The notes beneath the pieces are model-generated. The model did no database searches. It was not told where the DNA came from and worked only from the letters and a program-made list of their open reading frames with translations. Below are positions 12,930-55,753 of a DNA stretch of 64,000 bases, piece after piece. This stretch comes from Candidatus Bathyarchaeota archaeon (GTDB taxonomy: Archaea > Thermoproteota > Bathyarchaeia > 40CM-2-53-6): NCBI GenBank assembly GCA_005888755.1, contig VBBQ01000028.1, positions 84,736 to 148,735 on the forward strand, read 5' to 3'. Positions within the stretch are counted from its first letter, which is position 1. Each line of letters begins with the position of its first letter. The position numbers and the translations under genes were made by a program.

Positions 12930-13020
12930 TTCCCGTACAGACTCTAGTCTGTGTCTCCGTCCCAAGTATACAACCTCAATTAGGCTATTTTCCGCGTTTG
13001 CGAGCCTAGTTTAGGAACGA

Positions 13021-13240
13021 AATCGCCCATTATCAGCCCTGATATCGAATTTGGGACGCCTTCCCTTGACTGCCCGAGAGATCGTTCGTGACAGGGCGAT
13101 AAGACCCCTAGTTTCGCCCCAGCATCCAACCCTGAACCACGCCCTGAATCGCGGGACTCGCCCGGAAACCCTGCCAGACCAGCAAATCCTCTCGCCGGAA
13201 AGGGGGGTACTGGACAGGGCACCTCGCGACGCACGAGAGG
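13021..13240. ncRNA. Putative structured noncoding element, copy A
   Basis: Lies in a 370-base gap without a coding frame. Four blocks recur in the same order and near-identical spacing at 51704-51907: about 30 bases starting AATCGCCCAT (one indel, one substitution), GCCCTGAATCGC at 13141 (identical), a G-run near 13201, and CTCGCGACGCACGAG at 13223 (one or two changes and hairpin-forming). AGGGCG (13093) can pair with CGCCCT (13140). The strand is undetermined. The two copies are too diverged to be a recent insertion, yet blocks are kept, which argues for a selected RNA or protein-binding element. Confidence 0.55.
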
Positions 13241-13303
13241 TTCGCCCGGCCTGCCAAGCTAGGGTTTTATCAGAGTCGAACCGATCGACGCTTCGCTCGT
13301 GTC

Positions 13304-49577: not shown

Positions 49578-50732
49578 ATGGTTGAAGAAAGGTTCGTTGT
49601 GACACCATGGGAAGTGACGGGCGCTGTTGACTATGACCGACTCATTCGGGACTTCGGAACCCAACCACTAGCCGGCCCGCTCGCCAAGAAACTGGAAGAG
49701 ATACTTGGAGACGCTGCCTACCTTATCCGCCGGCACATCTTCTTCTCACACCGCGACCTCAACCTCGTACTCGACGACTACTCGAAGGGCAAGGGGCTAT
49801 TCCTGTATACGGGTCGTGGACCCAGCGGACCCATGCATATTGGCCACATACTCAGCTTCTATTTCACCAAGTGGCTCCAAGACAAATTTCACACAAATGT
49901 CTACATCCAGATAACCGACGACGAAAAATTCCTCGAAGAGAAGCGGAACCTATCCTATGAAGACGCCCAGCGATGGGCAGTTGACAATATTCTGGAAATT
50001 GCCGCAGTAGGCTTCGATCCAGATCGGACTTTCATACTTCAAGACACCGAGTTCATCGGTCAAGCATATCCACTAATCCTGAAGATAGCCCGCCGGGTTA
50101 ATTTCAGCACCGCCAAGTCAGTGTTCGGCTTCACCGGCGAGACAAACATCGGTTTCTCCTTCTACCCATCTATCCAGATCCTTCCAAGTCTACTCGAGAA
50201 ACGGCGCTGCCTCATTCCTTCGGCCATAGACCAGGACCCGTACTGGAGGATACAACGGGACATTGCGGAGTCGATGGGGTACTACAAGGCGGCTGCTGTC
50301 CACAGCAAGTTCCTTCCCCCGCTTACAGGGATGAAGGATAAGATGAGCTCTTCAAAGCCTGAGACTGCAATCTACCTCAGCGATGATGACAAGACGGTGC
50401 GAAACAAAGTGTACCGTTACGCCTTCTCCGGTGGACAAGCGACAAAAGAGGAGCATCGGAAGAAAGGCGGAGACCCCGACGTCGATGTTCCTTTCCAGTG
50501 GCTCTACATGTTCTTCGAACCCGATGATAAGCGGATAGAGCAGATACGTGCCGAGTACAAGAGCGGCCGGATGCTCACAGGAGACTTGAAGGACATACTC
50601 ATCGAGAAGGTGTCAACATTTCTCAGCGAACACAGGCAAAGGAGAGTGAAAGCTCGCGATTTGGTGCATTTGTACAAGAGAGACGGGACATTAGCACGGG
50701 AAATGTGGAAGCGTGACTTCAGTAAGGCGTAG
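49578..50732 (+). CDS. trpS: Tryptophanyl-tRNA synthetase
   Basis: 384 residues, class I. GPSGPMHIGHILSFYF is the HIGH motif (near residue 85) and TGMKDKMSSSKPETAIYL the KMSKS loop. VTPWEVTGAVDYDRLIRDFG at the N-terminus is characteristic of archaeal and eukaryotic TrpRS. It begins 3 bases after the pheT stop, so pheS-pheT-trpS form one transcript. Confidence 0.93.
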   Translation: MVEERFVVTPWEVTGAVDYDRLIRDFGTQPLAGPLAKKLEEILGDAAYLIRRHIFFSHRDLNLVLDDYSKGKGLFLYTGRGPSGPMHIGHILSFYFTKWLQDKFHTNVYIQITDDEKFLEEKRNLSYEDAQRWAVDNILEIAAVGFDPDRTFILQDTEFIGQAYPLILKIARRVNFSTAKSVFGFTGETNIGFSFYPSIQILPSLLEKRRCLIPSAIDQDPYWRIQRDIAESMGYYKAAAVHSKFLPPLTGMKDKMSSSKPETAIYLSDDDKTVRNKVYRYAFSGGQATKEEHRKKGGDPDVDVPFQWLYMFFEPDDKRIEQIRAEYKSGRMLTGDLKDILIEKVSTFLSEHRQRRVKARDLVHLYKRDGTLAREMWKRDFSKA

Positions 50733-50786
50733 TTCATACGTCAGTGACACCCAACTGCCATGATAGACAGGCCAAGCGTGGAATAA

Positions 50787-51703: not shown

Positions 51704-51907
51704 AATCGCCCATTTATCAGCCCTGATTTCGAATCTGCGAGGTACTCTTAACAAGCTGCCAAGATCTACTGGGTTAATCGAGTTTTTCGCCGAGCCATCT
51801 AAGCCTGATGTATGCCCTGAATCGCCTGTCTCGGGCATAATCGCTGGCAGACGGCGAGCGTTCTAGAGATAAGGGGGTCTTAGCGAGTGTGTCTCGCGTC
51901 GCATGAG
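51704..51907. ncRNA. Putative structured noncoding element, copy B
   Basis: Between map and a convergent membrane protein gene. Co-linear with the element at 13021-13240: AATCGCCCATTTATCAGCC and following bases (51704-51734), GCCCTGAATCGC (51814-51825), G-run (51872-51877), CTCGCGTCGCATGAG (51893-51907). Block spacings differ by 10 bases or less between copies. GCCC/GGGC pairing around 51814-51836 could close a hairpin. The last block ends next to the stop codon of the minus-strand gene at 51909. Strand unknown. Confidence 0.55.
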
Positions 51908-51908
51908 T

Positions 51909-52298
51909 CTACTTCTTTGGTGAGCCTTCGGTGTAGATCCCGTTGATTGTAAGATCCCCGGTCATGCACTGGGTGCATTTGCCGAGCGCTTTGAAGACAA
52001 AGTCGCCGATGGCGAAGTTTTTGATCTGTTTGAAGCTGCATTGGCCACACTTGACCACGGACAACACCTTGACAGGCGTGTACGCGCCTATCCTGATCCC
52101 ACGCCTCATCCTTGTCATGGTGAGAAGAACGAACGTGAACGCGAGAACCGCGATGGTAACGTAGAGGATTGTGATGTTGGGGTCTGTGATGACTCCTCCG
52201 AAGACGAGCCCGATAAAGTAGAGGCCGACAACGGCCATAACAGCGGCTAGTATCGTGAGTACTAGTGATGAGCCACTACGTGGCTTTGGCTGCGACAC
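51909..52298 (-). CDS. Membrane protein with C-terminal zinc ribbon
   Basis: 129 residues. Two membrane helices (LVLTILAAVMAVVGLYFIG; ITILYVTIAVLAFTFVLLT) are followed by VVKCGQCSFKQIKNFAIGD and LGKCTQCMTGDL, two C-x2-C pairs forming a zinc ribbon in the cytosol. 14 bases after the DUF1512 gene start-to-stop order on the same strand, so probably co-transcribed with it. Function unknown. Confidence 0.65.
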   Translation of the reverse strand: MSQPKPRSGSSLVLTILAAVMAVVGLYFIGLVFGGVITDPNITILYVTIAVLAFTFVLLTMTRMRRGIRIGAYTPVKVLSVVKCGQCSFKQIKNFAIGDFVFKALGKCTQCMTGDLTINGIYTEGSPKK

Positions 52299-53573: not shown

Positions 53574-53728
53574 GAGGTTGGCAGCGGTCTAAGCTTCGCG
53601 TGGGCGTTAGCACCACACTACCACAGAGATCGCATGGGAGATTCACTTCCGTGCTTCCGGTACGAGTTAAGCATCGCTTTCAGCGTTCCTGCCTTGCCTT
53701 CCTCATTCTTTCGGAATGGGTACGGGTC

Positions 53729-55753
53729 CTAGCTCCCACCTATGGCCGCCAACCCCGTGAGCAATCCGCTTAGGAATCGGCTAGATAAGCCTTCTCCGAA
53801 ATCAGGACTTGAAGAATACGTTGGCGGTTCCGCTTCAACTGGATGGTAATATGGTGAAGTAGGTTCGCTCTTTCTCCTAGAGACCAGCGCAATCAGGACA
53901 ACGAGGAATAGAAGAGCCAATCCAGCGATGAGGAAGAAGGCGGGAATCCCGGAGACTTTCAAGTTCGTCAGGTTTGGAATACCATTCACGGTGACGGTCA
54001 CAGTGTTTTGCCCTGAAGAGAACCCGGGCTTCGACGCTTGAATGGTAACTGTTGGGCTTGAGGCTTGAAGGGGAGTAGTGTAGATCGCAGTGTAGTTGCC
54101 GTTTCCGCCGTCCGTCGCGGCTGAGAAGCTTCCTCCTTCTGAGGAGGATAGAAAGATTGTGGCTCCTTGTACAGCGCTAGTTCCATTTGTGACGCGAATC
54201 ATCAAGACGATCTCGCCCCCCGGAGTAATGGATGTCGGAGTCGGGGCAGCCGCGACAGTCAAGGGGGGAAACGGGGTCAAAATAATCAAGGTCTGTGCAG
54301 ACCCGCTAAGAAAGCCGTTCTCGCTGGCCACGACCTGAATCAGCGTACTAACGGTAGAACTGACTAGAGGGGCTGTAAAATTGGAGTAGTACAAGCCGGG
54401 ACTACCCATGACTGGTTGAGTGAAACCGCCTCCAACCGACGACGTTAGAGAAAGGATGACCCCGGTTTGGGGAGCCGACCCATTCGTCACCGTGATTGTT
54501 AGTGTGGAGATTTGCCCCGGTTTTAGGCTTGTCGTGCTTGGAAACACTGACGCTTGCAAACTGGGCGCTACTACACCCAACGCGTATACGTTATAGTCGT
54601 CAGAGCCGAAGAATGCTCTTCCATCAGCAATTGCGGGAGAGGACCAGATTGGTGCCGCGGTTAGGTATCTCCATAGCCTGACGCCCGATGTAGCGTTTAG
54701 CGCGTAGAGATAGTGGTCGTTGGATCCGACGAGAATCATGTTCGAGCCTAGCGAGAGCGCGGGAGAGGATGAGACGGCTGCTCCGGTCGTAGCCACCCAC
54801 TTTTGCAGCCCCGTGGTGGCGTTGACCGCGTAAATGTTGCCTTTGCCCGTTCCGAAGTAGACAATCCCGTTGCTGACCGCGGCTGAGGTAGAGTTTGAGT
54901 TTCCTGTGTTGAACGACCAATCAGTCGCACCTGTAATCTCGTCTAGTGCGAAGAACTTAGTTGCGGTGCCGACGTAAACCCGTCCATAAGCTATCGCTGG
55001 CGCGTTTCTGATGGTTACTGCTCCCCCGGGCACTACTCTCCATATTGCCTTGCCAGTAGTCTCGTTTAGCGCCGTGACGGACCCATCGTCGAGTCCAAAG
55101 AATACCCGTCCGTTATGCACCGCTGGCGAGGAGGATACTGAAGAGGAGGGAAGGGTCGCGTTCGCCCAGACAACAGCACCTGTGCTTGCGTCGAGCGCAA
55201 CGAATTGTCCGTTCTGGAAGCAGCTCGCAGAGCACCAGCTGCTGTAGAATACTTTCCCATCCGCTACTGCAGGAGATGCGGCGATGAAGTAGTTGAGGTA
55301 GCCTCTCCCCCAGACCTCAGAGCCAGTCTGCTCGTTGAGCGCGTATAGAATGCCTCCGTTCCTGGAGGCAAAATATACCATCCCGTTCGCGACGGCTGGC
55401 GAGGAAAAGATGACACTTCCAGTGTTGAAGGCCCATTTTTGCTGGCCACTATATTCGTCGATTGCGTATGCGTTCATGTCGTATGAGGTTACGAAGACGA
55501 GTCCGTCCGAAACCGCGGGAGATGAGTAGACGAAAGATCCTGTTGCGAATCTCCACATCTGGTTCGCGGTACTCGGCGCGCTCGCTAGGGTTGCCCCTGC
55601 CCTAAACTGGTCGTCGTGGAACATGGTCCAGGGATAATCGGTCGACCCCAAGGGCCCAGCTGAATACGGCTGGAGATGATTTGTTCCGGCTCCGGAGATT
55701 CCGATGGCCAGCATGAAAAGGGAAAAGATTGTGAAAACGGCTACCCTTCTCAA
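53729..55753 (-). CDS. Surface PQQ-like beta-propeller protein with Ig-like domains
   Basis: 674 residues. A signal peptide (FTIFSLFMLAIGISGAG) leads to about seven propeller blades with repeating W-x-F/Y-x-T-G...SSPAV motifs (WRFATGSFVYSSPAVSDGLV, WSFNTGNSNSTSAAVSNGIV). Two Ig-like domains follow (ASVFPSTTSLKPGQISTLTI; VAAAPTPTSITPGGEIVLMI), then a C-terminal helix (FFLIAGLALLFLVVLIALVS) anchoring it. Probably a cell-surface binding or enzyme scaffold; PQQ use itself is not established and the PQQ-like fold often lacks cofactor. Confidence 0.75.
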   Translation of the reverse strand: MRRVAVFTIFSLFMLAIGISGAGTNHLQPYSAGPLGSTDYPWTMFHDDQFRAGATLASAPSTANQMWRFATGSFVYSSPAVSDGLVFVTSYDMNAYAIDEYSGQQKWAFNTGSVIFSSPAVANGMVYFASRNGGILYALNEQTGSEVWGRGYLNYFIAASPAVADGKVFYSSWCSASCFQNGQFVALDASTGAVVWANATLPSSSVSSSPAVHNGRVFFGLDDGSVTALNETTGKAIWRVVPGGAVTIRNAPAIAYGRVYVGTATKFFALDEITGATDWSFNTGNSNSTSAAVSNGIVYFGTGKGNIYAVNATTGLQKWVATTGAAVSSSPALSLGSNMILVGSNDHYLYALNATSGVRLWRYLTAAPIWSSPAIADGRAFFGSDDYNVYALGVVAPSLQASVFPSTTSLKPGQISTLTITVTNGSAPQTGVILSLTSSVGGGFTQPVMGSPGLYYSNFTAPLVSSTVSTLIQVVASENGFLSGSAQTLIILTPFPPLTVAAAPTPTSITPGGEIVLMIRVTNGTSAVQGATIFLSSSEGGSFSAATDGGNGNYTAIYTTPLQASSPTVTIQASKPGFSSGQNTVTVTVNGIPNLTNLKVSGIPAFFLIAGLALLFLVVLIALVSRRKSEPTSPYYHPVEAEPPTYSSSPDFGEGLSSRFLSGLLTGLAAIGGS

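Follow-up and report, generated by a model that had tools for sequence, protein, structure and literature searches.

Two gaps between genes, some 38 kb apart in the window (the whole 64,000-nucleotide stretch of Candidatus Bathyarchaeota DNA analysed here), hold short blocks that recur in the same order, and the locus raises the question of what kind of element these blocks compose. The original prediction was of a two-copy structured noncoding element, with the conservation of the blocks read as the mark of a selected RNA or a bound DNA site. The four blocks are indeed present in both copies, in the claimed order, positions and spacing: the block AATCGCC-ATTATCAGCCCTGAT lies at 13021 in copy A and 51704 in copy B, GCCCTGAATCGC at 13141 and 51814 (120 and 110 bases from the first block), and a CTCGCG(A/T)CGCA box at 13223 and 51893. 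The description of the element as two-copy is wrong: their own genome holds at least 68 units, A and B among them.

Repeat family and unit architecture

A genome-wide nucleotide search (BLAST) with copy A returned 52 places in its own genome. One of them is copy B (E 5e-6), and the strongest place other than copy A itself reaches E 1.9e-81. This result rules out a chance recurrence of the blocks. Built from 29 units and applied at a threshold of E 0.01 or better, a sequence-only model counts 68 units in the 2.0-Mb genome, which amounts to about 0.75% of it. Copies A and B are both among the 29 model-building units, thus the BLAST result serves as independent evidence. Judged by sequence comparison, A and B are members of a DNA repeat family of about 240 bases. 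The family is apparently undescribed: no description was found in the open-access literature searched. The genomes compared are MAGs in many contigs and genes were called with a simple hexamer scorer.

Units are about 231 or about 247 bp in length. Each opens at a sharp left edge, AAATCGCCCATTATCAGCCCTGATC, followed in turn by a variable middle, the middle boxes GCCCTGAATC and CTCGCCCA-AATC--TGCCAGACAG and a G-run, and ends in the right box CTCGCGACGCAAGAG and a tail of about 30 bases, the right edge of the family being soft. The left-to-right box distance is about 199-205 bases in long units and 186-190 in short ones. A unit stands alone or follows another head-to-tail, in pairs and occasionally triplets of fixed phase, with the next left box 43-45 bases after the start of the right box. 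Inside the unit the left-box motif returns at offset 134, with a score of 10.7 against 3.9 for the best of 30 column-shuffled controls, and the internal motif is found three times in the consensus of genome G019. A diverged type-2 unit has the left box in common with type 1 and, where present, generally stands ahead of a type-1 unit.

Copy A is a single and complete type-1 long unit at 13020-13264 on the forward strand, between two co-directional genes (model match 13020-13254, E 1.4e-50; the extent of its tail, to 13264, was set from the tandem spacing and the family alignment). Its left box AAATCGCCCATTATCAGCCCTGATATCGAATTTGGGAC (13020-13057) marks the sharp left edge of the family. The middle boxes GCCCTGAATCGC and CTCGCCCGGAAACCCTGCCAGAC occupy 13138-13182, and within them CTCGCCCA--ATC repeats the left box internally; the right box CTCGCGACGCACGAG (13223-13237) is followed by the tail of about 30 bases. 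Copy B, a type-1 short unit at 51704-51915 on the same strand (model match E 4.4e-36), fills the gap between two convergent genes and has its left box at 51704-51739, its middle box GCCCTGAATCGCC at 51814-51826 and its right box CTCGCGTCGCATGAG at 51893-51907.

The units carry no coding signal. Over 136 units the open frames are of the length found in shuffles (66 vs 62 codons), and A and B have no reading frame in common. Terminal inverted repeats were not found (the two ends give an inverted score of -0.3 at best, against a null mean of 1.2) and the inverted self-similarity of the unit is not above null. In 120 arrays, matching k-mers showed no positional excess that would indicate a target-site duplication, a test in which short duplications could be hidden by the decay of old insertions.

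Folding of the repeat

A family of noncoding RNA genes, as first suggested, would account for conserved blocks set among diverged spacers in noncoding DNA, an arrangement also seen in the structured RNA families of Rfam, and for the short complementary segment that lies in the neighbourhood of the right box in some copies. The folding data argue against it. Mean folding z is +0.26 and +0.07 on the two strands of 50 type-1 units and +0.19 and +0.32 on those of 13 type-2 units, near zero like that of the flanking DNA (0.04). RNAalifold found almost no structure at the level of the 29-unit alignment, where the fold reaches no more than -3.56 kcal/mol (covariation term -0.39). The one plausible hairpin, which spans the right box, has its bases paired in half of the cells, the same as in shuffled sequence, and the compensating base changes that had been looked for in support of an RNA do not exceed those of the shuffles. 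Rfam gave no match up to E 1, which bears out the statement that no known RNA family is represented, and no tRNA was found. Directly upstream of the units neither an A+T-rich peak nor a TATA-like word recurs at a constant position; in a set of 128 sequences, partly related to one another, nine TATAA words occur some 60-50 bases upstream.

Nor is the orientation of the repeat linked to genes. The 92 arrays lie in 31 convergent, 22 divergent and 39 co-directional intergenic contexts, and the co-directional arrays show little strand preference (16 in the direction of the genes, 23 against). The repeat thus differs from the Rfam families in that no fold, covariation, match or promoter signal was found for it. 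It does not appear to act through folded RNA; the claim of a structured RNA is not supported, and we regard a family of noncoding RNA genes as highly improbable. Conserved blocks alone would have given a false RNA-gene call, which the data from paralogues and orthologues correct.

Distribution and turnover

In a search of one genome per GTDB r220 species, the exact left-box pattern matched only soil MAGs, which are named Candidatus Bathyarchaeota or Crenarchaeota 13_1_40CM. No viral contig matched this pattern, and virus, phage or plasmid carriers of the repeat were not found. The model search identifies eleven genomes, forming one clade of the window's genus and including its own genome, with at least 49 units each (at least 49-57 in each of the ten relatives). 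The remaining members of the GTDB family mostly hold 2-30 units, with none in one incomplete genome, and the model found no unit in 17 genomes that belong to other families of the order. As far as searched, these matches would confine the repeat to soil archaea of a single GTDB family. The skeleton of boxes is kept across genera, and copies in a distant genome follow that genome's own consensus, which points to lineage-specific spread or homogenisation.

The noncoding element is real and is present at orthologous places in related genomes. Most tested loci are common to the closest sister species, and at L007/L210 and L083/L222 the repeat adjoins the same gene across a deep split. Along contigs the spacing of units is irregular. 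The site of copy B is single in four species, a tandem dimer in G007 (L108) and empty in G015 and G017 (L109, L111). Locus L005 is empty in G013 and G006, L019 is empty in G015 and G006, and the dimer of L025 is missing from G013 and G006. L014 has been cut down to its two ends in G013, L011 is inverted in G011, L016 holds a type-1 unit in one species and a type-2 unit in another, and some orthologous sites hold a different unit of the ancestral array. At L022 one unit has been lost by recombination inside the left box, the loss joining two left boxes, which is the pattern expected from recombination between units. All variable sites that could be polarised look like loss and none is a clear recent gain, hence the comparison gives no evidence of present mobility.

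Over 212 bp copy A matches its paralogue L002 at 91% identity; the similarity stops at the unit borders, and relatives hold different units at both loci. This suggests copying without new insertion, and gene conversion would be the simplest reading of the likeness. In G013 an inversion of some 6.5 kb spans the segment between L004 and L017, two copies in opposite orientation, and both of its break points fall inside units. A second rearrangement breaks at the L021/L013 pair, which lies on separate contigs of the window's own genome, so that an assembly error is possible. The two cases indicate that units serve as break points for genome rearrangements.

Some further features of these loci were observed. 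At the locus of copy A in a relative (L092) the unit is of a subtype only about 59% identical, in flanking DNA that is 74-84% identical. At a single point, opposite window positions ~50730-50734, the relative BA_21 carries some 1.3 kb of additional DNA (L058 1491-2804). At L080 (123-4432) two same-direction tandem pairs of the repeat flank a stretch of about 3.4 kb; the gene inside it resembles, by eye, a family B DNA polymerase and has its stop codon inside the left box of the second pair.

Divergence of boxes, units and flanks

Among 14 pairs of orthologous loci retrieved through their flanks, mismatch is 9.9% in conserved columns and 14.6% in variable ones, an excess of box-column conservation with an odds ratio of 1.55 (p = 0.0025). 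Strong selection in place was rejected. An apparent 2.7- to 3.7-fold effect shrank to this odds ratio with the flank-fetched loci; the larger estimate was biased because its pairs had been fetched by the exact left box and were, in effect, chosen for intact boxes. Left-box columns diverge by 8.2%, no slower than the unit tail (7.5%). Whole units diverge by 9.3%, with 13.9% for upstream and 7.8% for downstream flanks, which are partly coding. Most copies look near-neutral, with at most weak constraint. The view that block conservation is in itself a mark of selection is weakened by these comparisons, and what stands of it is the slight excess in the boxes, which leaves room for weak selection. 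The blocks would mostly reflect the common descent and homogenisation of the repeat family.

Origin and possible function

We propose that copies A and B are probably members of an ancient, lineage-specific family of interspersed DNA repeats, reshaped and homogenised by recombination, that would once have spread as a non-autonomous mobile repeat. Comparison of loci shows that recombination between units alters their number at a locus, that whole sites disappear, that in a sister species the stretch enclosed by two inverted copies has been turned round, its break points lying inside units, and that individual copies diverge about as fast as the DNA beside them. Gene conversion between copies would keep those within one genome alike. 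The earlier dispersal may have depended on a putative trans-acting enzyme that read the conserved boxes.

Against a mobile origin stand the lack of terminal inverted repeats and of a target-site duplication signal, and two further searches. No larger element with the same left box was found in 74 loci, whose exact left boxes all lie in full units, one of them cut by a contig end; and Y1 transposase (PF01797) is absent from eight genomes in which the controls were positive. No mobiliser was thus identified. The repeat resembles MITEs in being short, noncoding and multi-copy (~231-247 bp, 68 units, no coding signal), and differs from them in having no terminal inverted repeats and no target-site duplication signal. 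It is not the short palindrome with a stable hairpin that defines REP/BIME elements, given inverted self-similarity at the null level and z near zero, and the absence of PF01797 from the eight genomes speaks against a derivative of IS200/IS605-type (HUH Y1) elements. Our best reading is of a repeat without the marks of MITEs, REPs or Y1-type elements, and we claim no membership of a known family.

Alu and other dimeric interspersed repeats, like higher-order satellites, consist of two related monomers in fixed order that are homogenised by recombination or conversion. By analogy only, the present repeat shares the fixed order of related monomers and the homogenisation, but it has no sign of RNA origin, no retroposition tail and no long satellite arrays. 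Among archaea, the elements of Sulfolobus and Haloquadratum (reviewed in PMC10969869) are likewise short, noncoding, multi-copy and intergenic, vary in presence and absence and are substrates for rearrangement; in contrast to them, the repeat has no terminal inverted repeats or target-site duplication signal, no autonomous partner with the same ends was found in the 74 loci, and its tandem units are in fixed phase. Extragenic palindromic repeats, REP/BIME among them (PMC12306157), are also dispersed between genes with a lineage-specific consensus, whereas the present repeat is about 240 bp long, is not palindromic and forms no stable hairpin.

Two other accounts deserve weighing. Were the units remnants of non-autonomous rolling-circle (HUH-type) transposons, their head-to-tail arrays would need neither inverted ends nor target duplications, and a sharp left edge with a soft right one would be natural; yet no Y1 transposase is encoded in the eight genomes, no covarying hairpin lies near the right end, and random tandem read-through would not be expected to give the fixed order of type 2 before type 1, which leaves us with very little confidence in such an origin. 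The arrays could instead be multi-site platforms for a chromosome-organising or regulatory protein, kept by the host at dozens of sites. Several boxes at fixed spacing, a motif repeated within the unit (three times in the G019 consensus), a skeleton conserved across genera, the sharing of most tested loci with the closest sister species, the same neighbouring gene across the deep split (L007/L210, L083/L222), the slight constraint on boxes and the weak orientation preference all fit a host-functional element bound by protein. We nevertheless consider it unlikely, since box columns diverge by 8-10% between sister species, about as much as the tail (7.5%) and flanks, sites are freely lost, truncated and inverted, and spacing along contigs is irregular. 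A broader possibility, to which we would give only tentative credence, is that of a novel type of element in archaeal genomes: a DNA platform with several boxes and tandem phasing, found across the whole GTDB family, whose boxes would be read by a putative undescribed lineage-specific protein, either a recombinase or a chromosome-organising factor. Recombination between such platforms would then shape the chromosome.

Under the preferred reading, that of an old repeat family reshaped by recombination, a soil archaeal lineage carries a sizeable set of repeats (68 units, ~0.75% of the genome) without the hallmarks used to find prokaryotic mobile repeats. In the family, inversions and the turnover of units in the lineage would have a concrete source, and the paralogue and orthologue data make it testable what moved the repeat or reads its boxes.

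5S rRNA gene in the window

After ...CCGAA, the 5S rRNA gene at window positions 53576-53753 (reverse strand) contains some 56-57 inserted bases, which are missing from the otherwise nearly identical orthologue in L093. Across the family the gene is mostly 122 bases long, with lengths of 148-158 in G010, G014, G019 and G013 and 178 in the window, a spread that marks the insertion (intron or expansion segment) as variable and recurrent. The insert with its borders has a folding z of -1.8.
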